DNA from: Micromonospora acroterricola
Lineage (GTDB): Bacteria > Actinomycetota > Actinomycetes > Mycobacteriales > Micromonosporaceae
Assembly: GCF_003172955.1 (NCBI RefSeq)
Contig: NZ_QGKR01000149.1
Coordinates: 1 to 64,000, forward strand
DNA length: 64,000 bases
Direction: 5' to 3'
Part shown: one piece after another, positions 11,877-39,601 of the stretch
How positions within the stretch are numbered: the stretch's first letter is position 1
Layout of the letters: every line of letters begins with the position of its first letter
The notes under the pieces: model-generated
The model's database searches: none
What the model was told of the DNA's origin: nothing
The model's input: only the letters and a program-made list of their open reading frames with translations
Program-made: the position numbers and the translations under genes

Positions 11877-12047
11877 ACCGCTGACGCCGCAAACGCACAT
11901 ACGCTCACCGGACCCAGCCCCGCTCACGCCCTCCCCGTTCCTTCTCGCAGGCTCACCGCGCGTTCGGCATGGCTGTCCTACATGGGGGCGACGCGCACGG
12001 GGACCTGCCACCACCTCAACCACACGTCGTTAGTAGAAGGAGGGGGA

Positions 12048-14525
12048 ATGCGGCGCACACAACGGCGCATCGCGCTTCTCGCGCTGCCCGCCCTGGTGGG
12101 TAGCATCCTCGTGGCGACCGGGCCCGCGGGCGCGGATCCCACGGGGTCGTCAGCCACCGCCAGCCGATCCCAGCTTGAGGATCGGGAGGCGGTACGCCTC
12201 GTACACATCAGGCTGACCGGCGCCGACATGCTGGACAAGGTGGCCGCCGCCGGCTTCGACCTCGAGCACGGCCTCCGGCGCGTGCCGACCGGCATCGAAG
12301 GCGAGGCGGTGGTGACCGCCGGGCAGGTCGCCGAGCTCGAGGCGATGGGCGTCGACGTGCTCGGCGACGACGCGGGCTTCGCCTGGAGCGACGAGGCCGA
12401 CGGCGGCATCGGCATCGCCGCCGGCGCGCGGGCCGTCCAGCCGTTGAACCACGAGGCGACGGTACGCATCGCCCGCGCCGACTGGTTCACCACCAAGGGC
12501 CAGGGCTTCCTCTACGTCGAGGCGCGGACCACCGAGGGGCAGCAGGCGGACCCGATCGTCGGGATGCAGCTCGAGAACGACTCGGGCAAGGGCACGCCGT
12601 TCGGCTTCGCCCGGACGATGAGCCGGTTCGTCGACTCCGGGCAGTACATGTTCCACCGCAACCTGTTCAAGCTCGACGCGCGCCCCAGCAAGATCCAGGT
12701 GACGAGCTCCACCGGTGGCGTCGCCACCGGCGTCGTCTCCAACTGGCTCGAGGACGCGCCGCCGCCGTTGACGGCGAACCCGTCCTACAAGTCCGACTTC
12801 GTGGACGGCTACAAGCACCCGCAGCAGCTCTACAGCCGCGCCAAGGAGATCGCCCGCCAGTACCCGGACATCGCCGAGATCGTCTACCTGCCGAACGAGA
12901 CGAACGGGTACCAGCGCAAGGCGCAGGCCCAGATCGGCGGTACGGGGCAGGCGGCGGTCGTCGTCACCTCGGCGGCGTGGGGCCACGAGGGCGGCAACGA
13001 CATCACGGTCGAGTTCGTGGACCGGCCGGGTGCGGACCTCCCGCTCGCGGTGGAGGTCGCGGGCAAGGCGGTCCGCGTGCTCCTCGCCAAGGACGCCTCC
13101 GGCGGGCCGGCGAGTACGGCCACCGAGGTGGCGGAGGCACTGCGGACCGGGTCGCAGGGCCTCATCGACCGGGCGCACCCGTACCGCGCCAACGAGGGCA
13201 CCGGCATCGTCGCGCCGACGGCCGGCCCGGTCGCGCTGACCGACTTCCTCGACCAGAAGCGCGCCGGCGCACCGGCGGGCGAGGTGCCGCGAGGCCCGGC
13301 CACGATCCCCGTCCTGCGGGTCGGCAAGCACCGTGACGGCAGTAAGCCCGGTGTCCTGATCCAGGCGCAGGACCACGCCCGCGAGTGGGTGCCGGCGACG
13401 ACCAGCCTGGAGTCGGCCGAGCGTCTGGTGCACAACTACCGGTCCGACCGGGAGACGAAGAAGATCGTCGAGAACACCGACGTCTTCTTCATCCTCTCCA
13501 ACAACCCGGACGGGGCGAACTACAGCTTCTACAACTTCGCCTCGCAGCGGAAGAACATGACGAACCACTGCCCGGACGCGAACGCCGATCCGGCGCAGCG
13601 GAACTCCTGGGGCGTCGACCTGAACCGGAACTACCGGGTCGGGTCGGGCCACGACGGCTACGCCGGAGGGTCGACCAGCTGCGTCAGTGGCACCTACCAG
13701 GGGCCGGAGGAGCTGTCCGAGCCGGAGTCGAAGAACATCATCTGGCTGGTCGAGAAGTACTCGAACATCAAGTTCATGATGTCGGTGCACTCCAACGGCG
13801 GCCAGCTCTTCTGGCAGCCCGGCGCCTACATCGCGGACGGCCGGATCACCACGCCGCGCCCGCCGTTGGGTGACGAGGCGTTCTACTGGCAGTCGGCCGC
13901 CCGGATCCTGTCGCAGGTCAAGGCGCACCGGGAGACCGTCGTCACGCCGGAGAACGTCGGCGGCTCGTCCGACGTCCTCTACTCCTCGTCGGGCAACGTG
14001 CGCGAGGACCTGTACTACACCTACGGGATCTACGCGTTCGGCTGGGAGGTCGGCGGTTCCGTCTACAACCCGGCCACCGGCGACTGGCAGGGCGGTTCGT
14101 TCCAGCCAGAATGGGCGGGGAATCCCGAGCTCGTCAGCGGTCACGCCGAGACGATGGAGTACGCCAACGGGATCATGGAGATGTTCCGGGTCGCGGCGGA
14201 CTGGGGCAGGGACCGGAAGGACCCGACGTCCCGGCTCATCCCCGGCAGCGGGAAATACCGCGGGCCCGTCGACGTGCGCTTCGAGACGAGCGAGCCGGCC
14301 ACCATCTACTACACGACGGACGGCAGCCGTCCCACGCTCCAGTCGCCACGCTATGCGGCGACCGAGTTCCGTGAGCCGGGGCAGGTGTTCCACGTGACCG
14401 AGACGACGACGTTCCGCTGGTTCTCGGTCGACAGCGCCGGCAACATCGAGAAGAACTACGACCCGACGAAGAGCGACAAGCGCAACAACTACCGCACGGC
14501 GACGATCACGATCGTCAAGAAGTAG
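12048..14525 (+). CDS. Secreted M14 zinc carboxypeptidase with C-terminal beta-sandwich domain
   Basis: 825 residues with a Sec signal peptide (about 1-30, RRTQRR then ALLALPALVGSILV, cleavage near AGA-DP). The M14 domain runs from ~255 to ~720. The zinc motif HxxE is in QDHAREWVP (about 441), the third ligand His in MMSVHSNGG (about 579) and the catalytic Glu in FGWEVGGSV (about 665); NNPDG and DLNRNY are also seen. Between the first strand and the HxxE an extra segment of ~130 residues is inserted. Residues ~735-825 (RFETSEPATIYYTTDGSRPT) resemble the chitobiase/hexosaminidase C-terminal (CHB_HEX_C) domain. AAGGAGGGGG precedes ATG 12048. It probably digests peptides outside the cell. Confidence 0.9.
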   Translation: MRRTQRRIALLALPALVGSILVATGPAGADPTGSSATASRSQLEDREAVRLVHIRLTGADMLDKVAAAGFDLEHGLRRVPTGIEGEAVVTAGQVAELEAMGVDVLGDDAGFAWSDEADGGIGIAAGARAVQPLNHEATVRIARADWFTTKGQGFLYVEARTTEGQQADPIVGMQLENDSGKGTPFGFARTMSRFVDSGQYMFHRNLFKLDARPSKIQVTSSTGGVATGVVSNWLEDAPPPLTANPSYKSDFVDGYKHPQQLYSRAKEIARQYPDIAEIVYLPNETNGYQRKAQAQIGGTGQAAVVVTSAAWGHEGGNDITVEFVDRPGADLPLAVEVAGKAVRVLLAKDASGGPASTATEVAEALRTGSQGLIDRAHPYRANEGTGIVAPTAGPVALTDFLDQKRAGAPAGEVPRGPATIPVLRVGKHRDGSKPGVLIQAQDHAREWVPATTSLESAERLVHNYRSDRETKKIVENTDVFFILSNNPDGANYSFYNFASQRKNMTNHCPDANADPAQRNSWGVDLNRNYRVGSGHDGYAGGSTSCVSGTYQGPEELSEPESKNIIWLVEKYSNIKFMMSVHSNGGQLFWQPGAYIADGRITTPRPPLGDEAFYWQSAARILSQVKAHRETVVTPENVGGSSDVLYSSSGNVREDLYYTYGIYAFGWEVGGSVYNPATGDWQGGSFQPEWAGNPELVSGHAETMEYANGIMEMFRVAADWGRDRKDPTSRLIPGSGKYRGPVDVRFETSEPATIYYTTDGSRPTLQSPRYAATEFREPGQVFHVTETTTFRWFSVDSAGNIEKNYDPTKSDKRNNYRTATITIVKK

Positions 14526-17312: not shown

Positions 17313-18230
17313 TCAGTCGAGGGCGTCCTTGACCTTGCGGACCACGTTGGTGACGCCCTGCGCGTGGGCTCCGGCCGCGTCGCCGGGCTTGCCGGGGCCG
17401 CGGGAGCCGTCGTAGGTGGCGTACAGCTTCGGGTCGGGCGGCGGGGGCAGGGCCGTGTCGTCGGTCAGCGCGACCGGCTCGGGCCGGTAGGTCAGATCCT
17501 CCCCGCCGATGAGGCTCGGTCCCTGTGCCCAACGACCCTCTCCGGCGCGGCTGTCCGTACCGAAACTCCAGAACGTGTGGTTGTGATCCGCGTTCTCGAT
17601 GTCGCTGTTGGAGCGCTCGATGCCGTGCTCGACGTAGCCGTCGGCGATGAGCTGCTCGATGCCGAGCAGCCACTGCTGCTGGTGGTAGGTGTCCCGGGCC
17701 AGGTTGAAGCCGAGCATCTCCTTGACACCGGGGTCGTCGGTCATGTTCAACACCCGGCTGGTCTGTAGGCGGCTCTGCGCCTCCGCGGCGACGTTGGAAC
17801 GGAAGTCCGCGAGGAGGTTGCCACTCGCGACGATGTAGCCGGCGTTCCACGGGACACCCTGGCTGTCGCGGGGCAGCGGGCCGCCGCCGCCGACGATGGC
17901 GTGCTGCGGGTTCATGCCGCCGAGCACCGCGGCGAGGACGGGGTTGGCCGCGACCGCCTTCTCCGTCGTCTCGGCCGGGGCCCCCTCCAGGAGCCGGGCC
18001 AGCATCGTGGTGAGCATCTCGACGTGGCCGATCTCCTCGGTGCCGATGTCCATGATCATGTCTTTGTACTTGCCGGGCACGCGGCAGGTCCACCCCTGCC
18101 AGAGGTACTGCATCATCACGGTCATCTCGCCGAACTGGCCGCCGAGGATCTCTTGCAACTTCATCGCGAACAGCGCGTCGGGCTTCTCCGGCCTGGCCTT
18201 GAACTGAAGGTGTCGGTCGTGGCGGAACAC
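17313..18230 (-). CDS. katN: Manganese (non-haem) catalase
   Basis: 305 residues. Dimanganese catalases split hydrogen peroxide without haem. Ligand helices are visible: GGQFGEMTVMMQYL, TEEIGHVEML (ExxH), NVAAEAQSRLQ and ARDTYHQQQWL, giving the Glu/His set of the bimetal site. The C-terminal ~70 residues (PEPVALTDDTALPPPPDPKL onward) are the usual extended tail. GTG 18230 has GGAGG 5 nt upstream. It stands alone, divergent from the SGNH esterase, with a TAGATAG inverted repeat in the intervening region. It complements KatG at 32370. Confidence 0.93.
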   Translation of the reverse strand: MFRHDRHLQFKARPEKPDALFAMKLQEILGGQFGEMTVMMQYLWQGWTCRVPGKYKDMIMDIGTEEIGHVEMLTTMLARLLEGAPAETTEKAVAANPVLAAVLGGMNPQHAIVGGGGPLPRDSQGVPWNAGYIVASGNLLADFRSNVAAEAQSRLQTSRVLNMTDDPGVKEMLGFNLARDTYHQQQWLLGIEQLIADGYVEHGIERSNSDIENADHNHTFWSFGTDSRAGEGRWAQGPSLIGGEDLTYRPEPVALTDDTALPPPPDPKLYATYDGSRGPGKPGDAAGAHAQGVTNVVRKVKDALD

Positions 18231-18424: not shown

Positions 18425-18492
18425 TATTGACGCTCGTCGTGGCCGTCGACAGACTCTCGGCACCACCACCAGCACCCCCTCTGGGAGGCGCC

Positions 18493-19386
18493 ATGACCCG
18501 TCCCCGCCTGCCGCTCCTGCGGGCAGCCACCCGGTTGGCCGCACTCGCCGCGGCGACCGCCGCCGTGCTGCTCGCCGTCACCACGCCGGCGAACGCCGCC
18601 GTGCCGACCGGACGCTACGTCGCACTGGGCGACTCGTACACCGCCGGTCCGCTGATCCCCACCCAGGTCGACCTGAACTGCCTCCGCTCCAACCGCAACT
18701 ACCCGTCCCTGGTCGCCGCGTCCGCCGGCTCGTCGCCGTTCGTCGACGTGAGCTGCTCCGGGGCCACCACCGACGACATCCTCTACGGCGGGAGCGGACA
18801 GCTGGGCATCGCGGTGCCACCACAGCTCAACGCGGTCACGTCGACCACGGCGCTGGTGACGGTGCAGATCGGCGGCAACGACATCGGCTTCTCCGGCATC
18901 ATCAGCGACTGCGCGGAGGCGAGCCTCAGCAGCCCGCTCGGTTCGCCGTGCAAGGACCGGTTCACCGCCGGCGGCACCGACCAGTTGCAGGCCAGGATCG
19001 CCGCCGCCGCCCCGAAGGTGACCGCCGTGCTCCAGGCGGTCCGCCGGGCCGCGCCGGGCGCCCGGGTCGTGGTGCTCGGGTACCCGGCGATCCTGCCGGA
19101 CACCGGTTACGGCTGCTGGCCGGTGGTCCCGATCGCCTACCAGGACGTGCCGTACCTGCGGGGCGTCGCGAAGTCGCTCAACGCCACCCTGGCCCGCACC
19201 GCCGCGGCGAACGGCGCCACCTACGCCGACGTCTACACCCCGTCGATCGGCCGCGACACGTGCAAGAGCAGCGGCACCCGGTGGGTCGAGGGACTGGTGC
19301 CGCAGAACTCGGCCGCCCCGTTCCACCCGAACGCACGGGGCGAGCAGGGCATGGCCACCGCTCTGCTGGCCACGCTCAACAGCTGA
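18493..19386 (+). CDS. Secreted SGNH-family esterase/lipase
   Basis: 297 residues with a Sec signal peptide (about 1-36, cleavage near ANA-AV). The SGNH blocks are clear: block I YVALGDSYTAG (nucleophile Ser), block III VQIGGNDIGF, and block V PFHPNARGEQG (catalytic His). Six Cys in the mature part probably form disulfides, as in the Streptomyces extracellular lipases of this type. It should hydrolyse acyl esters outside the cell. GGGAGG precedes ATG 18493; an in-frame ORF extends upstream to 18427 without a ribosome site. Confidence 0.92.
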   Translation: MTRPRLPLLRAATRLAALAAATAAVLLAVTTPANAAVPTGRYVALGDSYTAGPLIPTQVDLNCLRSNRNYPSLVAASAGSSPFVDVSCSGATTDDILYGGSGQLGIAVPPQLNAVTSTTALVTVQIGGNDIGFSGIISDCAEASLSSPLGSPCKDRFTAGGTDQLQARIAAAAPKVTAVLQAVRRAAPGARVVVLGYPAILPDTGYGCWPVVPIAYQDVPYLRGVAKSLNATLARTAAANGATYADVYTPSIGRDTCKSSGTRWVEGLVPQNSAAPFHPNARGEQGMATALLATLNS

Positions 19387-19531: not shown

Positions 19532-20659
19532 TCACACCGACCCGACGAACTGGCTGACGTGGTAGGCGGTGCTGCGGCCGTCCGGCGTACGGGTCCACTT
19601 CGAGACCATGAGATGCAGATCGTTGGCGTCGCGGCTCGACCAGGGATGGATGAACCCACCGTAGAGTCCCGGCTCCTGCCAGCTCGTGACCTGGACCTTC
19701 TCCGCCGTCCACGCGCGGTCCGGTCCCGGCGCCGTCCGGGTGACCACACAACCGTTCTGGCAGTTCAGGTACGACATGACCCAGGTCCCGTCGCCCAGGC
19801 GGCGTACGGACGGCTCGCCGAAGCGGCCGGTGAGGATGGGTGTGCAGGGTCTCCCCCAGCCCCAGTTCGCGCCGTTCCAGCCCCACCCCTCGTAGGACTC
19901 GGGGTAGAACAGCCGGTCCCACCGGACGCGACGCAGCATCATCGGCCCGTCCTGCCGGCCGGAGCGCACCGAGAAGACGTAGACGTGGTCGCCGTCGCGC
20001 TGCATCGTCCACATTTGGAACGGGTCCTTGTTGTCCGGGCTGTTCCACCACTTCAGCGGCGTACGGATGAAGTCGTTGCCGTTGTCGGAGTAGGCCAGGC
20101 CCGCGTAGCGGGACTTCCACTGCGGTCCCGCCGGGCCGGCCGAGTTCCAGTTCTCGATGCTCATGTAGGAGATGAGCTGGCGACCGGTCTCGGGGAAGCT
20201 GATGCCGTCGTTGGGGATGACGGTCACCTCCGGGAGCCCGTCGATGCCGATGCCGTGGTGGCCGTTGTGCATCAGTTCGGGCGCGCGTCCGTTGCCGGCG
20301 ACCCGCGCCGCGCTGTCGAAGACCACTCCGCCCGGCGCGCCCGGGTGGATGGCGGACCGCAACATGACCGGTGACCGCCAGTCGTTCGGCAGGGGCGGGC
20401 CCTCGGGCCACGGGGTGTTGAAGGTGTCACCGAAGAGGTAGCCGATCGACGCGTTCTCCAGCACGTAGGGAATGCCCAGATCGGTGCCGGCCACCCGCCA
20501 TCGGCTGTTGGTGTCGAGGTCCGCTCCGGTCAACCGCTTCTTCCAGACCGCCGCCTGGGCCGGACCGGCCGTTGTCAGGACACCCCCGATGACACCGGCG
20601 GCGCTGGCGGCGCCTATCGCGGCGGCGCGACCGAGGAGCGAGCGACGAGGCAGGCCCAT
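19532..20659 (-). CDS. Tat-exported DUF4185-type protein
   Basis: 375 residues. The N-terminus has a twin-arginine signal (PRRSLLGRAAAIGAASAAG, cleavage near AQA-AV). The mature part carries DUF4185-like five-bladed propeller motifs (YLFGDTFNTPWPEGP, SPVMLRSAIHPG, RRLGDGTWVMSYLNC, SWQEPGLYGGFIHP), resembling glycoside-hydrolase-like propellers; the activity is unknown. The ATG at 20659, with GAGAGG upstream, begins the Tat signal; an in-frame extension to 20719 is unlikely. It is divergent from the peptidoglycan hydrolase tandem at 20871. Confidence 0.82.
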   Translation of the reverse strand: MGLPRRSLLGRAAAIGAASAAGVIGGVLTTAGPAQAAVWKKRLTGADLDTNSRWRVAGTDLGIPYVLENASIGYLFGDTFNTPWPEGPPLPNDWRSPVMLRSAIHPGAPGGVVFDSAARVAGNGRAPELMHNGHHGIGIDGLPEVTVIPNDGISFPETGRQLISYMSIENWNSAGPAGPQWKSRYAGLAYSDNGNDFIRTPLKWWNSPDNKDPFQMWTMQRDGDHVYVFSVRSGRQDGPMMLRRVRWDRLFYPESYEGWGWNGANWGWGRPCTPILTGRFGEPSVRRLGDGTWVMSYLNCQNGCVVTRTAPGPDRAWTAEKVQVTSWQEPGLYGGFIHPWSSRDANDLHLMVSKWTRTPDGRSTAYHVSQFVGSV

Positions 20660-20766
20660 GGCTGTCCTCTCCGAGACATCGATTGCCGAGAGTAAACCCG
20701 CAGGCACCGTCCATGTCAATACCTGCCCGCATCAGCGAGCACTGTGAAGGAAATCTTCAGGTTACA

Positions 20767-20792
20767 TTGACAGCCGTCATCGCCCTGATGAC
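20767..20792 (+). promoter_or_regulatory. Candidate promoter/operator upstream of the hydrolase tandem
   Basis: TTGACA (20767-20772) is followed by the perfect inverted repeat GTCATC-N5-GATGAC (20776-20792), which would overlap a promoter spacer. It lies about 80 bp before the first hydrolase GTG and could also act on the divergent DUF4185 gene. No good -10 box is obvious. Confidence 0.35.
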
Positions 20793-20870
20793 ACTCTCAG
20801 CAATCGAACCGGCGTCAGAGGCAGCAGCACGACGCCGCCGGGATGACCCACCGACCTCGCGAGGAGCATC

Positions 20871-22313
20871 GTGAGACGTACTCTCCTGGCCCTGTTGGTC
20901 GCCCTCGGCACCGCGGCGGCGGCCGTCACGGCAGCACCGGCTCATGCCGACCCGGTCGGCATCCTGGCCTGCCCCTCCATCCCCGCCAACCGCGACCCCG
21001 CGGTGACCCTGGTGGTCTACCGGGTCGCCCGCGCCCACAACGCCAACGACAAGGTGATGCTCTCCGCATTCGAGGCGGGCTGGGTCGAGTCACACATGAA
21101 CAACCTGCCGTGTGGCGACAAGTCGTCGCTCGGGGTGTTCCAGCAGCGCTGGGACTACGGCTGGGGCACTCCGGAACAGATCATGGACCCGGTCTACGCC
21201 AGCACCCAGTACGTCACCCGGGCGATCGTCTGCGACCGCAACAACCCCGCCTACAGCGCGGGACAGGTCGCCCAGTGCGTGCAACGGTCGGGCTTCCCGG
21301 ACCGGTACGACCAGGTGGCCGCCACCGCCCGGGCCCAGCTCAACGAGGCGGCCCGTACCCACGCCATCGCCGGCGGGTCCGCCACCGACGTCACCGGCGA
21401 CGGCCGCGACGACGTCGTGGCCTTCACGCAGAACGCCCTCGCCGACGTCTACGTGGGCGCCTCCACCGGTGGTTCCTTCACCGGCACCTCGGTCAAGTGG
21501 AACGACTTCTTCTCCATCGGCGGGGAGACCGCCTCGACCGGCGACGTCAACGGCGACGGCAGGGACGACATCGTCACCTTCGCGCACAGCAACACCGGCG
21601 ACGTGTACGTCGCGCTCTCCAACGGCACCTCGTTCGGCGGCGGCGGGAAGTGGCACGACTGGTTCGCGCCGGGCGCGGAGATCGGCGCGGTCGGCGACGT
21701 CAACGGCGACGGCCGCGACGACATCGTCGCCTTCACCCACAACCCCGCCGGCGACGTGTACGTGGCGCTCTCCACCGGCGCCGGGTTCGGCCCCGGCCTC
21801 AAGTGGCACGAGTACTTCAGCCCGTTCGGCGAGTTCCCGGCGCTCGGTGACGTCGACGGCGACGGACGCGACGACATCATCACCTTCACCCAGGGCCCCG
21901 CCACCGCCGCCGACGTCATCGTCGCCCTGTCGACCGGCAGCGCGTTCGGCGCCCCACAGAAATGGCACGACCTGTTCGCCGTCGGCGCCGAACAACCCCG
22001 CGTCGGCGACATCAACGGCGACGGCAAAGACGACATCGTCACGTTCACCTGCAACACCGACGCCGACGTCTACGCCGCCGTCTCCACCGGCACCGGCTTC
22101 ACCGGAACGACCGTGAAGTGGAACGACTTCTTCTGCCTCGCCGGCGAATTCCCCTACCTCGGCGACGCCAACGGCGACGGCCGCGACGACATCATCGTCT
22201 TCACCAAGGGCGCCACCAACGACATCCACGTCGGCCTCTCCACCGGCACCGGCTTCCTCGGCGCCACCAAATGGCACGACTTCTTCGGCCTCAACGGCGA
22301 AACCACCCTGTGA
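20871..22313 (+). CDS. Secreted lysozyme/transglycosylase-like protein with FG-GAP propeller
   Basis: 480 residues. The signal peptide (about 1-26) ends at AHA-DP. Residues ~30-160 look like a lysozyme/lytic-transglycosylase fold: AFEAGWVESHMNNLPCGDKS contains the probable catalytic Glu, followed by LGVFQQR and WGTPEQIMDP. Residues ~165-480 hold six ~51-residue FG-GAP/VCBS-type repeats, each with a calcium-type loop (for example GDVNGDGRDDIVAF) and a Trp-rich end (KWHDWFAPGAE), predicted to form a beta-propeller for wall or carbohydrate binding. GAGGAG precedes GTG 20871. First of three paralogous genes; its last 470 bp are nearly identical to the next gene. Confidence 0.85.
   Translation: MRRTLLALLVALGTAAAAVTAAPAHADPVGILACPSIPANRDPAVTLVVYRVARAHNANDKVMLSAFEAGWVESHMNNLPCGDKSSLGVFQQRWDYGWGTPEQIMDPVYASTQYVTRAIVCDRNNPAYSAGQVAQCVQRSGFPDRYDQVAATARAQLNEAARTHAIAGGSATDVTGDGRDDVVAFTQNALADVYVGASTGGSFTGTSVKWNDFFSIGGETASTGDVNGDGRDDIVTFAHSNTGDVYVALSNGTSFGGGGKWHDWFAPGAEIGAVGDVNGDGRDDIVAFTHNPAGDVYVALSTGAGFGPGLKWHEYFSPFGEFPALGDVDGDGRDDIITFTQGPATAADVIVALSTGSAFGAPQKWHDLFAVGAEQPRVGDINGDGKDDIVTFTCNTDADVYAAVSTGTGFTGTTVKWNDFFCLAGEFPYLGDANGDGRDDIIVFTKGATNDIHVGLSTGTGFLGATKWHDFFGLNGETTL
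21844..22313 (+). repeat. 470-bp near-identical repeat, copy 1
   Basis: The 3' end of the first hydrolase gene matches 23931-24400 in the second with, by eye, about four base differences, covering the last three propeller repeats and the stop codon. Upstream parts of the two genes are clearly more divergent, which suggests recent gene conversion or duplication. Confidence 0.9.
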
Positions 22314-22333
22314 ACGGCGAACTGGAGGCCCCG

Positions 22334-24400
22334 ATGCGACTGACCCGGCCCTCGTGGCGCGCCTGCGCCCTCCTCCTGACGGCGGCGCTCGTCGCCCAGG
22401 CCACGGCCACGCCGGCCGTCGCGGCCCGGCCCGCGGCACCCGGTTCGCTCGGCACGGCCTTCGTGCGCGCCGCCGCCGAGTTCGACGTACCTCGGGACCT
22501 GCTGGTCGCCGTCGCCTACGGTGAGTCGCGGCTGGACGGGCACGACGGTCTGCCCAGCCAGGCCAACGGTTACGGGGTCATGCACCTGGTCAGCAACCCC
22601 ACCCAGCACAGCCTCGAACGTGCGGCCACGCTCACCGGCGAGCCGGTCGCCCGCCTGCGCTCGGTCACCTCGGCCAATGTCCGGGGTGGTGCGGCGGTGC
22701 TGCGCGACCTGGCCGACAGGGAGGGACTGACGAGCGGTGCGCGGGACCGGCTCTCCGCCTGGTATCCGGTCGTGGCGCGCTACAGCGCCGCCGTCGACGA
22801 CCCGACGGCCCGGCTCTACGCCGACCACGTCTACGACCTCCTGCGTACCGGAATCGCGGCCCGTTCGGTGCGGGTCGCGCCGCAGCCGCTCCGACCCGAA
22901 CTCGGCCGCTACGCGCGGGTCGCCCCCGCGGGCGCCGCCGCCGGTCCGAACGCCGCCGCGGCCGCGGTGCCGGAGTACGGGCCGGCGCGGTGGGTGTCGG
23001 CCTACGGCGGCAACTACCAGGTCGGCCGGTCGTCACGAATCACCACGGTGGTGGTGCACGTGACCCAGGGCTCGTACGCCGGCACGGTGAGCTGGTTCCA
23101 GAACCCGTCCGCGGGAGTGAGCGCGCACTACGTCGTGAAGTCGAGCAACGGTGAGATCACCCAGATGGTGCGCGAGGGAGACACGGCCTACCACGCGCGC
23201 TCGGCCAACCCGTACTCGGTGGGCATCGAGCACGAGGGGTTCGTGGACAATCCGGCCTGGTTCACCGACGCCATGTACCGGTCCTCGGCAGCGCTGACCC
23301 GCTACCTGTGCGACAAGTACGGGCTGCCGAAGAACCGCACGGCGATCAAGGGGCACAACGAGCTGCCCGGCAACGATCACACGGACCCCGGTCCCAACTG
23401 GAACTGGAACTACTACATCTCGCTGGTCAACGCCGGCAGCTCCGGCGGTCGCTACCTGGCGGGGTCACCGACGGACTTCACCGGCGACGGCCGGGACGAC
23501 GTGGTCGCCTTCACCCAGGGCAGCCTCAACGACGTCTACGTGGCCGCCTCCACCGGCAGCGCCTTCGCCGGCACCTCCGTCAAGTGGAACGACTTCTTCG
23601 GCCTCACCGGTGAGACCCTGCTCAGCGGCGACGTCAACGGCGACGGCCGCGACGACGTCATCGCCTTCACCCACGGCACCCTCGCCGACGTCTACGTGGC
23701 CCTCTCCACCGGCGCCAGCTTCGGCGGCGGCCAGAAGTGGCACGACTGGTTCGCACCGGGCGCCGAGGTCGGCGCGGTCGGCGACGTCAACGGCGACGGC
23801 CGCGACGACATCGTCACGTTCACCCACGACACGAACGCCGACGTGTACGTGGCCTTGTCCACCGGCGCCGGGTTCGGCCCCGGCCTCAAGTGGCACGACT
23901 ACTTCTCGATCCCCGGCGAGTTCCCGGCCCTCGGTGACGTCGACGGCGACGGACGCGACGACATCATCACCTTCACCCAGGGCCCCGCCACCGCCGCCGA
24001 CGTCATCGTCGCCCTGTCGACCGGCAGCGCGTTCGGCGCCCCACAGAAATGGCACGACCTGTTCGCCGTCGGCGCCGAACAACCCCGCGTCGGCGACATC
24101 AACGGCGACGGCAAAGACGACATCGTCACGTTCACCTGCAACACCGACGCCGACGTCTACGCCGCCGTCTCCACCGGCACCGGCTTCACCGGAACAACCG
24201 TCAAGTGGAACGACTTCTTCTGCCTCGCCGGCGAATTCCCCTACCTCGGCGACGCCAACGGCGACGGCCGCGACGACATCATCGTCTTCACCAAGGGCGC
24301 CACCAACGACATCCACGTCGGCCTCTCCACCGGCACCGGCTTCCTCGGCGCCACCAAATGGCACGACTTCTTCGGCCTCGACGGCGAAACCACCCTCTGA
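22334..24400 (+). CDS. Secreted N-acetylmuramoyl-L-alanine amidase with lysozyme-like domain and FG-GAP propeller
   Basis: 688 residues. The signal peptide (about 1-31) ends near AVA-AR. Residues ~35-175 resemble an SLT/lysozyme-like domain (VPRDLLVAVAYGESRLDG with the likely catalytic Glu). About 220-365 form an Amidase_2 domain: zinc ligands are visible as His in VVVHVTQG, His in KGHNELPG and the NDHTDPGPNW motif, with Glu in VGIEHEG. Residues ~375-688 are six FG-GAP repeats like those of the neighbours. It may cut both glycan and stem-peptide bonds of peptidoglycan. GGAGG precedes ATG 22334, only 20 nt after the previous stop, so it is probably cotranscribed. Confidence 0.88.
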   Translation: MRLTRPSWRACALLLTAALVAQATATPAVAARPAAPGSLGTAFVRAAAEFDVPRDLLVAVAYGESRLDGHDGLPSQANGYGVMHLVSNPTQHSLERAATLTGEPVARLRSVTSANVRGGAAVLRDLADREGLTSGARDRLSAWYPVVARYSAAVDDPTARLYADHVYDLLRTGIAARSVRVAPQPLRPELGRYARVAPAGAAAGPNAAAAAVPEYGPARWVSAYGGNYQVGRSSRITTVVVHVTQGSYAGTVSWFQNPSAGVSAHYVVKSSNGEITQMVREGDTAYHARSANPYSVGIEHEGFVDNPAWFTDAMYRSSAALTRYLCDKYGLPKNRTAIKGHNELPGNDHTDPGPNWNWNYYISLVNAGSSGGRYLAGSPTDFTGDGRDDVVAFTQGSLNDVYVAASTGSAFAGTSVKWNDFFGLTGETLLSGDVNGDGRDDVIAFTHGTLADVYVALSTGASFGGGQKWHDWFAPGAEVGAVGDVNGDGRDDIVTFTHDTNADVYVALSTGAGFGPGLKWHDYFSIPGEFPALGDVDGDGRDDIITFTQGPATAADVIVALSTGSAFGAPQKWHDLFAVGAEQPRVGDINGDGKDDIVTFTCNTDADVYAAVSTGTGFTGTTVKWNDFFCLAGEFPYLGDANGDGRDDIIVFTKGATNDIHVGLSTGTGFLGATKWHDFFGLDGETTL
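23931..24400 (+). repeat. 470-bp near-identical repeat, copy 2
   Basis: Second copy of the segment at 21844-22313, offset by exactly 2087 bp and ending at the stop codon of the amidase gene. Confidence 0.9.
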
Positions 24401-24483
24401 GCACGTCCCGAGGCGTCGCGGTGGTGGGCGGCCGACCCGTGCCGGCCGTCCCCCCCGGGCACCATCCCGACAGGAGCCACGCC

Positions 24484-26004
24484 ATGTTCCGGCACTCGCG
24501 TACCCCTCTGCGCCGCTCCCTGGTCGCGCTGCTCACCCTGGCTGCGGCGGTTCTGACAGCCGTGGTGGCGACACCCTCGCCCGCGTTCGCCGCACCGAAC
24601 TTCAAGGCGCCGTTCCCGTGCGGGCAACGGTGGACCTACGACCACCACAGCGCGGAGGTACGGCAGGCGCTGGACTTCGTCCGCGCCGACGGCGGGACGA
24701 CCGGAGGCACCCCGCAGGTCGCCTCCGCCGCGGGTGTGGCCCGGCACTACTCCCAGCCCAGCGGCGCCGGCAACTACATCGTCATCGACCACGGTGGCGG
24801 CTGGACGACCTACTACTTCCATCTCAGCGCCTACTCGGTCGCCAACGGCGCGTACGTGCAGCAGGGCCAGCAGATCGGCATCACCGGCAGCACGGGCAAC
24901 TCCTCCGGACCGCACGTCCACTACGAGCAGCTCTACAACGGCGTCGGCCAGACGATCGTCATCAACGGCGTCTCACTGGCGCCGTACCCGGCGCAGTACC
25001 ACCAGAAGTACCTGGTCAGTGACAACTGCGGCGGGTCGTCGGCCGGCGGCCGGTACCTGGCCGGCTCGCCCACCGACTTCACCGGCGACGGCCGCGACGA
25101 CATCGTCGCGTTCACCCGGGGATCGCTCAACGACGTGTACGTGTCGTCGTCCACCGGGACCTCGTTCGCCGGAACGTCGGCGAAGTGGAACGACTTCTTC
25201 GGCCTGAACGACGAGACGCTGCTGTCCGGGGACTTCAACGGTGACGGCCGCGACGACATCGTGGCCTTCACGCACGGCTCGCTCGCCGACGTCCACGTGG
25301 CGTTGTCGACCGGGTCGTCGTTCGCGGGCGCCACCCGATGGCACGACTGGTTCGCGCCGGGCGCCGAGGTGGCCGCGGTCGGCGACGTCAACGGCGACAG
25401 CCTCGACGACATCGTCGCCTTCACCCACAACGACGCCGGGGACGTTCACGTCGCCCTGTCCACCGGGTCGTCGTTCGCCGGTACGGCGCTGAAGTGGCAC
25501 GAGTACTTCTCGATCGGAGGCGAGTACCCGGCCCTCGGTGACGTCAACGGCGACGGCCGGGACGACATCATCACGTTCACGCAGGGTCCGGTCACGGCGT
25601 CGGACGTCATCGTCGCCCTGTCCACGGGGTCGTCGTTCGGCGCCGCCCAGACGTGGCACGACCTGTTCGCCGTGGGCACGGAACAGCCCCGCGTCGGGGA
25701 CATCAACGGAGACGGCAAGGACGACATCGTCACGTTCACCTGCAACGCCGACGCCGACGTCTACGCGGCCGTCTCCACCGGCACCTCCTTCGTCGGCACC
25801 ACCGTGAAGTGGAACGACTTCTTCTGCCTCGCCGGCGAGTTCCCCTATCTGGGTGACTACGACGGCGACGGCAGGGACGACATCATCGCCTTCACCAAGG
25901 GCAGCCTCAACGACGTCTACGTCGGCCTCTCGACCGGCACCGCCTTCGGCGGCGGCGCGAAATGGCACGACTTCTTCGGCCTACCCAACGAAACCACCCT
26001 CTGA
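24484..26004 (+). CDS. Secreted M23-family peptidase with FG-GAP propeller
   Basis: 506 residues. The signal peptide ends near AFA-AP (about residue 37). Residues ~40-185 form the LytM/M23 zinc endopeptidase domain: the first ligand region is TYDHHSAEVRQALDFVRADG and the HxH motif is SSGPHVHYEQ. A short linker is followed by six FG-GAP repeats (about 195-506); the third repeat carries NGDSLDD instead of NGDGRDD. Protein similarity to the two upstream propellers is high, but the DNA is more diverged. CAGGAG precedes ATG 24484, 83 nt after the previous gene. It likely cleaves peptidoglycan cross-bridges outside the cell. Confidence 0.9.
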   Translation: MFRHSRTPLRRSLVALLTLAAAVLTAVVATPSPAFAAPNFKAPFPCGQRWTYDHHSAEVRQALDFVRADGGTTGGTPQVASAAGVARHYSQPSGAGNYIVIDHGGGWTTYYFHLSAYSVANGAYVQQGQQIGITGSTGNSSGPHVHYEQLYNGVGQTIVINGVSLAPYPAQYHQKYLVSDNCGGSSAGGRYLAGSPTDFTGDGRDDIVAFTRGSLNDVYVSSSTGTSFAGTSAKWNDFFGLNDETLLSGDFNGDGRDDIVAFTHGSLADVHVALSTGSSFAGATRWHDWFAPGAEVAAVGDVNGDSLDDIVAFTHNDAGDVHVALSTGSSFAGTALKWHEYFSIGGEYPALGDVNGDGRDDIITFTQGPVTASDVIVALSTGSSFGAAQTWHDLFAVGTEQPRVGDINGDGKDDIVTFTCNADADVYAAVSTGTSFVGTTVKWNDFFCLAGEFPYLGDYDGDGRDDIIAFTKGSLNDVYVGLSTGTAFGGGAKWHDFFGLPNETTL

Positions 26005-26036
26005 CTCCACTCGGCCACGGCGAGCAGGCCGGCGGC

Positions 26037-27248
26037 CTACATGAAGTTGCGGGTGTGCAGGGCGGAGAGCTCGGCGGCCTCGTCGGGGCGGAAGCCCAGT
26101 CGTACCAGCCGGCGCTGCCGACCCTGGTCCATCGCGTGCTGGAGCTCCTGCACCCGCTGGAAGCCGGCGGACACGTCATCGGGACGCCAGCTTCCCGCCG
26201 CGAGCACGACGAGCGCGTCGAAGACGTCCGCGTTGAGGCCGGCGGTGTCGATGAGCGCGTCGTGTCGCCGGTGGATGGCCGCGCGCAGCCGGTCCCGCAG
26301 CCGCGGGTCCACCGTCGCCTGGTGCTCCAGGTGCGCCATGCCGAACACCACGTGCCGGCGCTCGTCCTGCATCGCCAGCCAGCAGATCCGGCGGGTCACC
26401 GGGTCCGGGGCGTTCCGCTCCAGGAACGAGAGCAGGTCCACGAAGCTGCCCTCGCCGAGCACGGACAGCAGGAACGAGGCCAGGGCGAAGTCGGACTCCG
26501 CGACGAGCGTGAAGAGCGACTGTCGGCCGCCGGCCGACGACGTGCCCAGCTCCGCGCCCCGCAGCAGCGCACGCCGGCTGAACACCTCCATGTGCCGGGC
26601 CTCGTCGGCCATCTGCACCGCGAGAAGCTGCGTCACCTCGCGGAAGTGCGGGTGGATGCGCCCGACGAAGCGCGCCGGCACGACGAGCGCGGCCTGCTCG
26701 TTCTCGACGAGGTAGGTCATCACCTGCACCACCGCCGCCTCCACGTCGGCCGGCAGCGTGAACGCGTCGTCCCACGGGACCTCGCTCTCCGGGTCCCACT
26801 GTCGGGCGGCGGCCTGGGCGTACAGCTTGGGCGCCACGTCGGCCCACACCAGATCGCGCTCGTCCAGGTCGAACCGGGCCTCGGGGCCGCCGGCCTCCAG
26901 CAGCGCGCCGCGGGCGCCGAGCCCCCACCGTGGCGGCGGGCGGCTGCTGAGCGCCGTGGGCAGGGCCGGGCCGGCCCGTTCCGCGCCGAACCAGCGGTCG
27001 TCATCGGCCGTGCCCCGGACGACCACCGCCACCAGCTCGCTCCGATCGGCGGGATCCGGCCATTCGACCCGGTGCCCCCGGCTCCGGCACCACGCGGGCA
27101 GGTGCACGGGCAGGGCCGGGTCGCGGCCGGAGACCGCCAGCCGGCCACCGGGCGGCAGCCCGGCGAGGGCGCGCTGCACCAGCAGGTGCGCTCCCCGGCC
27201 GAAGCCCAGGCCGCCGAGGTGGATCTCGGCGGCGGGTACGGCGTTCAC
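26037..27248 (-). CDS. TusA-like/ferritin-like diiron fusion protein
   Basis: 403 residues. Residues 1-65 (IHLGGLGFGRGAHLLVQRAL...) resemble a TusA/SirA-like fold, but the catalytic CPxP Cys is absent (GFGRG at that place). Residues ~140-395 form a long helical ferritin-like domain with diiron-type ligands: YLVENEQAAL, MADEARHMEVF (ExxH), LGEGSFVDLL and MQDERRHVVFG (ExxH). It may be an oxidase or oxygenase; no substrate is known. The GTG start overlaps the stop of the PhnD-like gene (GTGA), so the two are coupled. It is last in the operon and convergent with the M23 gene. Confidence 0.75.
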   Translation of the reverse strand: MNAVPAAEIHLGGLGFGRGAHLLVQRALAGLPPGGRLAVSGRDPALPVHLPAWCRSRGHRVEWPDPADRSELVAVVVRGTADDDRWFGAERAGPALPTALSSRPPPRWGLGARGALLEAGGPEARFDLDERDLVWADVAPKLYAQAAARQWDPESEVPWDDAFTLPADVEAAVVQVMTYLVENEQAALVVPARFVGRIHPHFREVTQLLAVQMADEARHMEVFSRRALLRGAELGTSSAGGRQSLFTLVAESDFALASFLLSVLGEGSFVDLLSFLERNAPDPVTRRICWLAMQDERRHVVFGMAHLEHQATVDPRLRDRLRAAIHRRHDALIDTAGLNADVFDALVVLAAGSWRPDDVSAGFQRVQELQHAMDQGRQRRLVRLGFRPDEAAELSALHTRNFM

Positions 27249-28090
27249 GGCCGGTAGCCGGCGGCCGTCACCCGCCCGTCGGCGGCGTAGAACCCGCTCG
27301 CGTCGACCGCGCGGGCGAGCGCGTCGTACCCCGAGGTCCGGCTGTCCTCCCAGGCCGTCAGTCCCTCCAGGTCGAGCAGTGGCCGCACCTGCGAATCGGC
27401 GTACGACATGCCGCGCAGAAGCGTGCCGAAGAGCCGGACCCCGGCCGACGCGGGGTCGCGGACCGTCATGTTGCAGTGGTCGTATCGCGCGGTCTGCGCG
27501 ACGATCCGGGTGCCCTCCGGCGGCAGCGTGCCCTCCTGGACGAACGCCAGGTGATTGGCGTCGATCATGCAGGCGGCGTCCACCTCCTTGGCGATGAGGG
27601 CCCGGGCCGCGTCGCGCTCACCGCCGATGTGGTCGCCGTGCAGACCGACGCCCACGTCGAACCGGCGGACGTCGACCGGCACGCCGGCCGCCGCGAGGTG
27701 GCCGAGCGGGATCAGCGTCGCCTGTGGGCTGTCCACGGCACCGACGGCGACCACCAGCCCGGCGAGGTCCTCGACCTGCCGCACCGGCGAGTCGGCGCGC
27801 ACCACCACGACGGAGGTGAGGTCCCGGTCGGTGTCGCGCATGGTGAGCGCGTGCACGGCGCTGCCGCTGGCCGCCGCCAGCCGTTCGGCCCGCAACCAGG
27901 CGAGGGGTGAGTTCCACGCCGCGTCGATCCGGCCGGCGACCAGGTCCTCGACCTGCCGCTCGTAGTGGGAGTAGAGGACGAAGTCGAAGTCCAGGCCGTT
28001 GCCCCGCAGCCAGGCGCGGAAGCCCTCCCAGATGGTCACGACCTTGGGGTCGTACGCGACGGCGCCCATCAGGACCGTTGGCGCCGGCAT
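27245..28090 (-). CDS. PhnD-like substrate-binding-fold protein without signal peptide
   Basis: 281 residues of the periplasmic-binding-protein type II (PhnD/SsuA/transferrin) fold: AYDPKVVTIWEGFRAWL, HYERQVEDLVAGRIDAAWNS, SVVVVRADSPVRQVEDLAG and LIAKEVDAACMIDANHLAFV. PhnD proteins bind phosphonate or similar anions for ABC import, but here no signal peptide or lipobox precedes the domain and no ABC permease or ATPase is nearby, so a cytosolic binding or sensing role is more likely (inference). The ATG shares its last base with the upstream TGA and its own stop overlaps the next start, so the whole operon is tightly coupled. Confidence 0.78.
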   Translation of the reverse strand: MPAPTVLMGAVAYDPKVVTIWEGFRAWLRGNGLDFDFVLYSHYERQVEDLVAGRIDAAWNSPLAWLRAERLAAASGSAVHALTMRDTDRDLTSVVVVRADSPVRQVEDLAGLVVAVGAVDSPQATLIPLGHLAAAGVPVDVRRFDVGVGLHGDHIGGERDAARALIAKEVDAACMIDANHLAFVQEGTLPPEGTRIVAQTARYDHCNMTVRDPASAGVRLFGTLLRGMSYADSQVRPLLDLEGLTAWEDSRTSGYDALARAVDASGFYAADGRVTAAGYRP

Positions 28091-32369: not shown

Positions 32370-35098
<2,729 letters not shown>

Positions 35099-36154: not shown

Positions 36155-36580
36155 CTCTCGGCCCTCCGCGCCCCGTGTGACTGCCTTCCCGGATTCAAGC
36201 ACTGTTCCGCAGGGTCCGAATGGCGTTCCGGGAAGCCCGGGTGGTACCCACGGCACCAGCCTGCCCGCGACGCGGCGACGGGACCGGCGGCGGGGCTGCG
36301 CCAATGAGCCTGCCGGCGCCTCCGAAGGGCCGCACGACGGCGGCCCGCCGAACCGGCCTGAATCCGCCCCGAAACCGGCGCAGGCCTCATGTTCGCCGGC
36401 CGGGCATTCCACTCGCCTGACCAGAGCCGCAGGTCAGGCATTGTTCATCGCCTCAAACTCCGCCAATGTCACCATTTGCCGGTGTGATTATCACCGTGCC
36501 GTCATGACTCATCACACTATGAACACGGATCGGCCACTCGCAGGATTGACGTCACCAACCAGGTGGCGGAGGCGAGCAGG
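36155..36580. other. Non-coding stretch upstream of the lanthipeptide cluster
   Basis: No gene is supported here. From about 36440 the composition becomes AT-rich and includes the palindrome GTGATTATCAC (36484-36494; arms GTGAT/ATCAC), about 90 bp before the LanKC start. This is the likely promoter/operator zone of the cluster and a candidate binding site for the downstream LuxR-type regulators. Confidence 0.5.
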
Positions 36581-39145
36581 ATGGATGATCGGTACGACTC
36601 GTACTGTGCGGTCGACCCGCTCTTCTACGACTCGCTGTCGACGGCGGCGTCGACGGCGCCCCGATACGCGGCCGACCGCCCGCTGCCCGCCGGCTGGGAG
36701 CGCGAGACCAAGGACGACTGGCTGGTGTACGGGCCGGTCGGCGGCACCCTCCCCCAGCAGGGCTGGAAGATCCACATCTCCGCTCGGCTCGACAACGCCG
36801 AACGGGTGCTCACCCGGGTTCTCGACTACTGCCAGGCCCGGGACATCCCGGTCAAGCACCTGCGCGGTCCGCGGCTGCTCCTGATGCGCAACAGCAAGTA
36901 CGCCCGGCGCGGCAGCAGCGGCAAGTTCATCACCGTCTACCCGCGCGACGACGCCGAGCTGGAGCTGACCGCGAAGGAGCTGGCCGACCTGCTCGACGGC
37001 GAGCCGGGGCCGTACGTGCTCAGCGACCTGCGCTACGGCGCCGGCCCCGTGCACCTGCGCTACGGCGGTTTCGCCGCCCGGTACTGCCTCTCCCCCGACG
37101 GCCAGGTCGTCCCGGCGATCGAGGACCAGCACGGCCGGCTCGTCCCGGACCGGCGCGATCCGGTGTTCCACGTGCCCGAGTGGGTCACCCTGCCGGACTT
37201 CCTCGCCCCGCACCTGGCCGCCCGCAACGCCACCACCACCGGCGACCTGCCGTACCGGATCGAGAAGGTCATCCACTTCTCCAACGGCGGCGGGCTGTAC
37301 GAGGCCCGGGACACCCGCACCGATGAGCGGGTGGTGTTGAAGGAGGCCCGCCCGCACGCCGGGCTGGACTCCACCGGCACCGACGCGGTGACCCGGCTGC
37401 ACCGCGAGGCCGAGATGCTGACCCGGCTGGCGGACGTGCCGCACCTGGTGCGCGTGCACGACCAGTTCACCCTCGGCGAGCACGAGTTCCTGGCTCTGGC
37501 GTACGTCGACGCCCGCCCACTCAACCGGCTGATCGTGGAGCGGCACCCGCTCGTGCACCTGGACGCCGACCGGGCCGCCTACACCCGCTGGGCGCTCGAC
37601 GTGGACCGGCAGGTGTCCGAGGCGCTGGCGGCGATCCACGCCCACGGCGTCGTCTACGGCGACCTGCACATGTTCAACATCCTGGTGGCCGAGGACGGCA
37701 CCGTCACGCTGGTCGACTTCGAGGTGGCGGCACCGCTGGAGGAGGCGACCCGGCCCGCGCTGCGCAACCAGGCGTTCGCCGCCCCGCGCGACCGCACCGG
37801 GTTCGACGTGGACCGGTACGCGCTGGCCTGCCTGCGGCTGGCCCTGTTCCTGCCGCTGACCGCCATGCTGCGGCTGGCCCCGGGCAAGGGCGCGCACCTG
37901 GCCGACGTGATCGCGGAGCACTTCCCGGTGCCACGGGCCCTGCTGGACGAGGCGGTCGCCGTACTCGACGGGACGCCCGACGCTGCGGCGCGCACCGCCC
38001 CCCGGCTCGAACCGGGCACCCTGGAGATCGACCCGGACGACTGGCCGGGGCTGCGTGACCGGCTCGCCGCCGCGATCGTCGCCAGCGCCACCCCACACCG
38101 TGACGACCGGCTCTTCCCCGGCGACATCCAGCAGTTCACGGGCGCCGACGGCGGGCTGAACGTCGCACACGGCGCGGCCGGGGTGCTCTGGGCGCTGCAC
38201 GCGACCGGCGCGGGCGTCGATCCCGAGCACGAGCGGTGGCTCGTCGACCGGGTCCGCGAACCGGCCTCCGGCACCCGGCTCGGCTTCTACGACGGGCTGC
38301 ACGGCATCGCGTACGTGCTGGACCGCCTGGGCCGGCACGAGGAGGCGCTGCGCCTGCTCGACGCCTGCCTCGCCGAGCCGTGGCACGCCCTCGGCGCCGA
38401 CCTGGCCAGCGGCCTGTCCGGCGTCGCACTGAACCTCGCCCACTTCGCGGACACCACCGGGGACCGTCGCTACCTCGACGCCGCCCGGCAGGCGGCCAGC
38501 CTGGTCACCGAACGGCTCGGCCCGGTGGACTCGGTTCCGGAGATCAGCGGTGGCCGCAACCCGTGGGCGGGGCTGACCCGCGGCGGCGCCGGGATCGCCC
38601 TGATGCTGCTGCGGATGTACGAGCGCGACGGCGATCCGGCGCTGCTGGACCACGCGGGCACCGCGTTGCGGCAGGACCTGCGCCGGTGCGTGCTGCGGGA
38701 GGCCGGTCACCTTGAGGTCAACGAGGGGTGGCGGACGATGCCGTACCTCGCGCACGGCAGCGTGGGCGTCGGGCTGGTGCTCGACCAATACCTGGCGCAC
38801 CGGGCCGACGAGGAGCTGGGCGACGCGGCGCGGGCCATCCGGCGCTGCGCGGACTTCCCGTTCTACGCCCAGTCGGGCCTGTTCGCCGGGCGCGCCGGGA
38901 TCGTCGCCTACCTCGCCGAGCGCGGCGAGCTGGACCAGGCCCGTGACCAGGGCCGGCTGCTGAGCTGGCACGCCCTGCCGTACCGGGGACTGCCCGCCTT
39001 CCCGGGCGAGCAGTTGCTGCGCCTGTCCATGGACCTCGCCACCGGGACCGCGGGGGTACTGACCGCGCTGGCGGCGACCCGCCCGGAGCGCACCGTACGA
39101 CTGCCGTTCCTCACGCCGCGCACCGACGGGGCGGCCGGCGACTGA
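36581..39145 (+). CDS. ramC: Class III lanthipeptide synthetase LanKC (RamC/AmfT-like)
   Basis: 854 residues with the three-part LanKC layout. The N-terminal lyase-like region (about 1-215) is followed by a Ser/Thr-kinase-like domain (about 220-500) with VVLKEARPH (Lys ~250), catalytic loop HGVVYGDLHMFN (~357) and metal motif LVDFEVAA (DFE), then a C-terminal LanC-like cyclase (about 515-854) with HGAAGVLWAL, GFYDGLHGIAYVL and AHGSVGVGLVL but without the zinc Cys/His set, as in class III. It phosphorylates Ser residues of the precursor, eliminates and cyclises to form (labionin/)lanthionine rings. ATG 36581 has GGAGG 8 nt upstream; an in-frame GTG at 36563 lacks one. It lies directly before the precursor genes. 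Confidence 0.95.
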   Translation: MDDRYDSYCAVDPLFYDSLSTAASTAPRYAADRPLPAGWERETKDDWLVYGPVGGTLPQQGWKIHISARLDNAERVLTRVLDYCQARDIPVKHLRGPRLLLMRNSKYARRGSSGKFITVYPRDDAELELTAKELADLLDGEPGPYVLSDLRYGAGPVHLRYGGFAARYCLSPDGQVVPAIEDQHGRLVPDRRDPVFHVPEWVTLPDFLAPHLAARNATTTGDLPYRIEKVIHFSNGGGLYEARDTRTDERVVLKEARPHAGLDSTGTDAVTRLHREAEMLTRLADVPHLVRVHDQFTLGEHEFLALAYVDARPLNRLIVERHPLVHLDADRAAYTRWALDVDRQVSEALAAIHAHGVVYGDLHMFNILVAEDGTVTLVDFEVAAPLEEATRPALRNQAFAAPRDRTGFDVDRYALACLRLALFLPLTAMLRLAPGKGAHLADVIAEHFPVPRALLDEAVAVLDGTPDAAARTAPRLEPGTLEIDPDDWPGLRDRLAAAIVASATPHRDDRLFPGDIQQFTGADGGLNVAHGAAGVLWALHATGAGVDPEHERWLVDRVREPASGTRLGFYDGLHGIAYVLDRLGRHEEALRLLDACLAEPWHALGADLASGLSGVALNLAHFADTTGDRRYLDAARQAASLVTERLGPVDSVPEISGGRNPWAGLTRGGAGIALMLLRMYERDGDPALLDHAGTALRQDLRRCVLREAGHLEVNEGWRTMPYLAHGSVGVGLVLDQYLAHRADEELGDAARAIRRCADFPFYAQSGLFAGRAGIVAYLAERGELDQARDQGRLLSWHALPYRGLPAFPGEQLLRLSMDLATGTAGVLTALAATRPERTVRLPFLTPRTDGAAGD

Positions 39146-39221
39146 CCGGCACACACCAGCTCCCCGGGGGTCACTCCGGGTGAAACCGAACACCGCGAGA
39201 CGACGAGGGAGGTGAACACGA

Positions 39222-39341: not shown

Positions 39342-39416
39342 CGCCGACGGTCACCGCAGCGGTGACCGCGGCCCACCGAACCAGAACCCAACCGACGACC
39401 GGAAAGAGGTAAGGAC

Positions 39417-39536: not shown

Positions 39537-39601
39537 CGCCGAGTTCGTCTGGTCCCGGGCCGGTTCCCACCGGCCCGGGGCCGCGCTCATGGGAGGGGTG
39601 G

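Follow-up and report, generated by a model that had tools for sequence, protein, structure and literature searches.

The genes that degrade D-arabinan were identified only in 2023 (PMC10115798, PMC10509167). The locus of Microbacterium arabinogalactanolyticum combines enzymes of families GH183, GH172 and GH116 with a sugar transporter, an isomerase and a kinase (PMC10509167), and the accessible parts of both reports mention no peptidoglycan hydrolases in such loci. A second point of reference is UmbA4, a part of the Streptomyces umbrella toxin particles, which joins a trypsin-like domain to a bulb lectin (PDB 9oee) that binds a wall glycopolymer, Streptomyces teichuronic acid (PMC13274773). 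Here we describe a locus of Micromonospora acroterricola, at positions 20871..26004 of a 64,000-nt window (the whole stretch of DNA that was analyzed), in which three adjacent genes, O1, O2 and O3, encode predicted peptidoglycan hydrolases that carry the same six-repeat propeller and lie beside a GH183 gene. The account that we favor, with some reservation, is that they act as secreted, lectin-addressed hydrolases within a D-arabinan-utilization regulon for the arabinogalactan-type walls of other bacteria. A broader version, which we put forward tentatively and at slightly less than even confidence, is a whole-wall digestion regulon, in which one LacI-type circuit would control arabinan- and peptidoglycan-degrading enzymes, mostly bearing the same lectin propeller, with which Micromonospora and its relatives would strip, open and eat Mycobacteriales-type cells. 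Contigs of the host genome are labeled C, the genomes compared G and named loci L.

Three predicted, propeller-tagged wall hydrolases

O1 (20871..22313; 480 residues, GTG start), O2 (22334..24400; 688 residues) and O3 (24484..26004; 506 residues) are complete open reading frames on the forward strand, arranged head to tail with intergenic gaps of 20 nt and then 83 nt. Each has a signal-like N-terminus, predicting secretion, and each carries an FG-GAP/VCBS propeller (21369-22310, 23456-24397 and 25060-26001, respectively) of six FG-GAP stretches (Pfam, E 1.1e-22 to 4.3e-26), composed of PF01839/PF13517 repeats with DxDxDG-type loops. The O2 and O3 propellers are 88% and 77% identical in protein sequence to that of O1, a likeness far beyond chance. 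The reading frames, their coordinates, the Pfam matches and these identities bear out an earlier note, made from the DNA letters alone, which had proposed three adjacent hydrolases with a common six-repeat propeller.

The catalytic assignments are of unequal strength. Those of the O2 Amidase_2 domain (about 22970-23431; PF01510, E 8.8e-33) and the O3 Peptidase_M23 domain (about 24592-25038; E 3.6e-21) are firm by sequence, and the lysozyme-like assignments of the O1 and O2 N-domains are weaker. The O1 lysozyme/transglycosylase-like domain (20949-21368) has no match in Pfam or NCBIfam, gives a weak match to PDB 8b2h (E 0.005) and is all-helical in a structure model; the O2 SLT-like domain (about 22424-22873) matches SLT at E = 0.22, under the curated cut-off. 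The earlier note's lysozyme-like labels thus stand on less than the other two, with an invariant glutamate in their favor: we aligned the window's own sequences with relatives (17 of 31 for O1, 15 of 26 for O2 and 14 of 21 for O3), and both N-domains retain an invariant Glu and SLT-like motifs, over 18 and 16 sequences. The assignment of these glutamates to lysozyme/SLT motifs is our presumption. In the same alignments, H212, H311, D321 and E269 of the O2 amidase are invariant in 16 sequences, which we take to include the zinc ligands, and H18, H19, D28, H77, H108 and H110 of the O3 M23 domain, which cover the zinc-ligand His/Asp and HxH residues of that family, are invariant in 15; the first His lies 9-10 residues ahead of the Asp, presumably as in the LasA branch. 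Candidate active-site residues are therefore conserved in all four catalytic domains. O1–O3 would act on the glycan strands, on the amide bond between MurNAc and peptide, and on peptide links. Fold searches added little on the N-domains: the O2 model (pLDDT 70.0, pTM 0.50) gave Foldseek rows led by propellers and did not settle the SLT-like domain, and propellers filled the list for O1, so that its N-domain was barely probed. Where O2-type proteins in public databases are named, they are mostly called N-acetylmuramoyl-L-alanine amidase (best 120 of 1994).

The best structural match of the predicted propeller model in Foldseek is the lectin UmbA4; integrin, Tc-toxin and other propellers score lower in the lists and were not used. 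As modeled, the propeller resembles a wall-glycan lectin, which suggests a ligand in the wall, and a six-bladed Ca-loop lectin of this kind would keep the tagged enzymes on one wall surface. A fourth close copy in the genome (56% identity) sits on a GH172 protein of contig C44, placing the propeller on both enzyme classes.

The propeller is also recombinogenic. Its 3′ halves in O1 (21827..22313) and O2 (23914..24400), both on the forward strand, share 99.0% DNA identity over about 480 nt, compared with 87–91% to their own orthologs in L039, L040 and L043 of close Micromonospora; because the two halves are closer to each other than to their orthologs, we attribute this to gene conversion between neighbors. 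Such homogenization, together with the shortened propellers of some relatives, would fit a module that recombination has spread among functionally unrelated genes and that serves only stability, secretion or assembly. We consider that explanation very improbable, given the common operator and the repeated co-localization with two enzyme classes across genera that are described below.

Putative D-arabinan genes and a shared promoter/operator motif

Divergent from O1 lies a GH183 (DUF4185) endo-D-arabinanase homolog (19532..20719, reverse strand; probable ATG start at 20659, with an Arg-Arg signal). It matches PF13810 at E 1.8e-70 and the endo-D-arabinanase EndoMA1 (PDB 8hhv) at E 9.3e-36, and it keeps all three carboxylates shown to be essential in that enzyme (PMC10509167). 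The GH172-propeller protein of C44, also with a signal-like N-terminus, retains in alignment both catalytic glutamates reported for DgGH172c (PMC10115798). Beside it are GH43-like, FGGY kinase, L-fucose-isomerase-like and LacI genes and, at C44:2474-3265, the genome's only GH116 match (PF04685, E 1.4e-38); a 200-residue piece of L137, not aimed at the GH116 domain, gave no Pfam match. The end of C222 carries a second GH172 operon (GH172 at C222:133083-133811), in which a binding protein and an ABC permease are also encoded. The host genes do not form one contiguous cluster, as is usual, if not strictly defining, for the described loci, and because they are split between the window and C44 we describe them as a regulon rather than a single locus. 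In G018, hydrolases, GH172, transporter genes and the isomerase lie within one stretch of about 18 kb; the G018 genome has no GH183 match.

These genes suggest a route in which GH183 would cleave the D-arabinan coat, GH172 and GH116 would trim it down to D-arabinose, and the isomerase and FGGY kinase would pass the sugar into pentose metabolism, while O1–O3 would open the peptidoglycan beneath the arabinan.

A promoter/operator-like motif links the two gene sets. The GH183/O1 intergenic region holds a site for GH183 (20679..20719, reverse strand; TTGACA...TTTACTCTCGGCAATCGA) and one for O1-O2-O3 (20767..20807, forward strand; TTGACA...CAGCAATCGA), with a palindrome, TGAAGGAAATCTTCA (20745..20759), between the two divergent −35-like boxes; at its position, eight of ten aligned Micromonospora orthologs have TGAA-N7-TTCA. 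Alignment of this region from the window and ten named loci reveals two outward −35-like boxes with GCAATCGA-like blocks, and the same arrangement occurs at the GH172 promoters of C44 and G018. Across the 6,508,102-base genome, TTGACA-N20-36-GCAATCGA occurs at three sites, namely GH183, O1 and the C44 GH172-propeller operon, and the reversed pattern at none. The fuller palindrome GVAATCGATTTC also has three genomic sites (control 0), ahead of the C44 kinase, the GH172-propeller gene and, counting an inner ATG as its start, the second GH172. The GH183 site of the window differs from it by one mismatch (GCAATCGATGTC).

The first pattern was derived from the window, C44 and G018, and the 12-mer consensus was written after viewing matches in all 63 named loci, with no strict hold-out. 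In the 1,096,497 bases of those loci the 12-mer is matched exactly 12 times and with one mismatch 19 times, with some of these sites overlapping, and its reversed control is not matched. Within 419-nt upstream stretches and allowing up to two mismatches, it precedes lysozyme-like (LYZ) genes in 7/16, GH172 in 4/5, GH183 in 5/14, M23 in 0/11, SLT in 1/13 and esterase genes in 1/13 cases in Micromonospora loci, compared with 2.6% of 1500 random stretches; in other genera the counts are LYZ 8/14, M23 9/12, GH172 5/12, GH183 0/4 and SLT 0/15 (random, 4.3% of 1500). These counts omit matches of <50% identity (GH183 excepted) and those <420 nt from a stretch end, take fragments of one esterase gene separately, enter a site twice when it lies between divergent genes, and are set against random stretches that include true sites. 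Because the SLT+amidase gene is usually second in its operon, it acts as an internal negative control. A looser pattern gave 40 matches in 31 of 61 genomes, 11 of them, by coordinates, at kit or D-arabinan loci (reversed control, 5). The matches in G019 and G040, which played no part in writing the pattern, and the exact whole-genome count were obtained afterward. G019 has a GH116-LacI-GH172-GH183 locus with the operator on either side of its LacI gene, and the operator stands ahead of a GH172 in G040.

The LacI gene beside the C44 operons encodes a protein 78% identical over 279 residues to that of G018, and proteins 67–97% identical to the latter occur in eight of the 63 loci. A further match, in L094 (77% over 79 residues), shares its contig with L058, one of the eight. 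Judged from these sequences, O1–O3 and GH183 are probably under a LacI-type repressor, which, with a presumed inducer, probably governs a regulon for the use of foreign D-arabinan-bearing walls. Because scans of 20500-26300 for generic sigma-70 promoters and for terminators returned no matches, the proposed operon structure rests on the 20- and 83-nt gaps and the motif.

Distribution and the likely target wall

A scan with a propeller alignment collected the 63 loci, mostly from Micromonospora, which also supplied those closest to the window, and Catellatospora, with others in Dactylosporangium, Hamadaea, Actinophytocola, Lentzea, Nonomuraea, Streptomyces and further genera; because it was seeded with the window's own propellers, the set favors close relatives. 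Among its 124 propeller genes, 122 are distinct: 78 peptidoglycan hydrolases (LYZ 31, SLT+amidase 26, M23 21), 22 arabinan-type enzymes (GH172 18; GH183 4, all in Catellatospora), one GH43, 19 unclassified and 2 cut by an edge. GH172 is the most frequent non-peptidoglycan partner of the propeller seen. GH183 or GH172 is also present in 32 of 45 peptidoglycan-hydrolase loci, or 32 of 43 once two pairs that are overlapping stretches of one contig are merged.

Some of the remaining fusions stand apart. In L050 (5380-8082, reverse strand), L058, L059, L088 and L094 the propeller follows an N-terminal part of roughly 570–630 residues in the same loci; that of L050 has no Pfam match, and this part is possibly an unrecognized wall glycosidase. 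Other domains carry the propeller in L067, L068, L071, L083-L086 and L093, namely a polysaccharide-lyase-like one (PF14099 in L067), trypsin-like ones (PF00089 in L084 and L093) and a subtilase (L086); the trypsin-like fusions are reminiscent of the UmbA architecture.

Within the genus the set has a scattered distribution. Relatives of O3 (79–86% identity) occur in 5 of 36 other genus genomes among the matches listed, one relative being truncated where its contig ends, and 10 of 37 genus genomes hold 11 GH183 genes. Of these GH183 genes, five (in G000, G010, G027, G029 and G033) have a propeller-hydrolase gene no more than about 1 kb away, and two adjoin an M23 gene related to O3 (L034 and L035, in G012 and G014). 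The G012 M23 protein carries seven DUF346 repeats in place of the FG-GAP propeller, as a swapped address module. Because of this patchiness, a housekeeping role is disfavored. The three-gene set that the earlier note proposed to look for elsewhere does recur in other genera. Its idea of a modular lysis kit, as opposed to housekeeping enzymes, gains from the patchiness and recurrence, the invariant residues and the lectin likeness; predation, its other suggestion, is not established, and feeding on wall debris is equally compatible. Its picture of three genes only was too narrow, having missed the adjacent GH183, the propeller on GH172 and GH183, and the motifs in common with the D-arabinan genes.

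Two accounts of the target compete with the one that we favor. Remodeling of the wall of the host itself as it grows, sporulates or germinates, with GH183 and GH172 trimming a host arabinose polymer, would accord with the arabinose among the whole-cell sugars of Micromonospora and with the fact that mycobacteria themselves encode GH183; a partial literature search turned up nothing usable on which enantiomer of arabinose Micromonospora walls contain, and the passages of PMC3229680 consulted have no bearing on the question. We regard self-remodeling as improbable: GH183 is confined to the 10 of 37 genomes noted above, a catabolic role is indicated by the genes for a sugar kinase, an isomerase-like protein, an ABC transporter and LacI, and neither Emb nor AftA was matched in the host genome in searches that both found the Corynebacterium glutamicum positive control. 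From the sequence, mycobacterial-type arabinan in the host's own wall is unlikely, and AftA matches occur in 2 of 36 other genus genomes. Because the host has no Emb or AftA match, foreign arabinogalactan-type walls, live or dead, are favored as the substrate.

Alternatively, the genes could form a kit of broad range, for competition or scavenging, that is directed at Gram-positive walls of many kinds, its propeller binding a common glycopolymer or GlcNAc and the arabinan link reflecting a general wall-eating programme. The teichuronic acid ligand of UmbA4, the GlcNAc bound by PVL-type lectins, the propeller's presence on proteases and a polysaccharide-lyase-like domain, and the 13 of 45 peptidoglycan-hydrolase loci with neither GH183 nor GH172 in the stretch covered all speak for such a kit. 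Against it stand the rank of GH172 among non-peptidoglycan partners (18 of 122, with four more GH183) and the operator that the promoters have in common, and we judge it rather unlikely, if less so than self-remodeling.

A number of observations weigh against the D-arabinan-utilization account itself. The O1 site keeps only GCAATCGA, with four of 12 positions off GVAATCGATTTC (GCAATCGAACCG), and the exact −35 plus core pattern is sparse: LYZ 5/30, GH172 6/17, GH183 2/14, M23 1/23, esterase 1/13, GH43-like 0/5 and SLT 0/28 (random, 92/20000). The isomerase-like protein falls just under Pfam cut-offs and has no PDB relative, and the GH172 family also includes fructofuranosidases, so that a D-arabinan specificity of the host GH172s is presumptive. 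Four of the 11 genus GH183 genes, one of them the G019 locus, have no propeller or M23 match on their contig among the matches listed. Even without Emb and AftA the host wall could still carry some arabinan, and AftA is matched in G027, a relative that bears the kit. Given the trypsin-like, subtilase and polysaccharide-lyase fusions, the propeller ligand need not be arabinogalactan, and the activity, expression and binding of O1–O3 are themselves predictions.

An esterase was considered as a mycolyl hydrolase and left out of the mechanism: among PDB structures it is closest to generic and feruloyl esterases, and corynebacterial Cmt1 gives a weaker match. PF00756-type matches, some of them fragments, occur in 11 of the 45 peptidoglycan-hydrolase loci, one with the operator (L066); a search of the host genome, run without a positive control, found none.

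Next to GH183 in the window is a GDSL lipase (18427-19386), as in Micromonospora sp. RHAY321 (L101:7824-8714, 94% identity), the only such locus found among the 63. Directly downstream of O3 on the opposite strand, 26037-27248 gives weak AurF and TusA matches, both under curated cut-offs, beside a phosphonate-type binding protein (27245-28090, reverse strand). Elsewhere the window encodes a zinc carboxypeptidase (M14; 11982-14525) that has a signal-like N-terminus and a domain resembling the chitobiase C-terminus, a manganese catalase (17313-18230, reverse strand) and a protein with two haem-peroxidase stretches (32370-34826, reverse strand). A RamC/LanKC-like lanthionine synthetase (36563-39145; PF25816, kinase, LANC_like), with an ABC transporter after it (39602-41269), probably marks a class III lanthipeptide locus (36563-41269).

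Comparison with known systems

If correct, our account would add to D-arabinan loci their second half, the opening of the sacculus, together with an address tag common to the parts, and would account for the way in which mycobacterial-type walls could serve soil actinobacteria as a resource. It would also supply an enzyme set for dissecting arabinogalactan-peptidoglycan, with the propeller as a candidate probe for such walls, and it makes testable what the uncharacterized VCBS propellers of actinobacteria bind.

All enzyme types of the Microbacterium locus are present in the host genome, split over the window, C44 and the end of C222. The host differs in that three peptidoglycan hydrolases share a promoter motif and neighborhood with the arabinan genes, and in that its GH172 begins with a signal-like segment and bears a lectin-type propeller; for the Microbacterium exo-enzymes, the part of the report available describes a lack of signal sequences (PMC10509167). 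Predatory bacteria and the lysis cassettes of phages also have GH183/DUF4185 proteins (PMC10115798), so that an arabinan-cutting family appears where a mycobacterial-type wall must open, as is proposed here; the present gene is instead chromosomal, has a promoter motif in common with genes of sugar catabolism and adjoins propeller-tagged hydrolases. Unlike UmbA4, O1–O3 carry wall-hydrolase domains and have no trypsin-like Pfam match. The PVL-type fungal GlcNAc lectins (PDB 2bwm, 4tqm) are eukaryotic and have seven blades (PMC8023676), compared with the six repeats of the O1–O3 propeller. A partial literature search, of titles and abstract openings, found no description of peptidoglycan hydrolases in a D-arabinan locus or of this propeller on them. 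The earlier note had known of no described system with this set. The parts are of known kinds, and it is their combination and their common address module that appear to be new.

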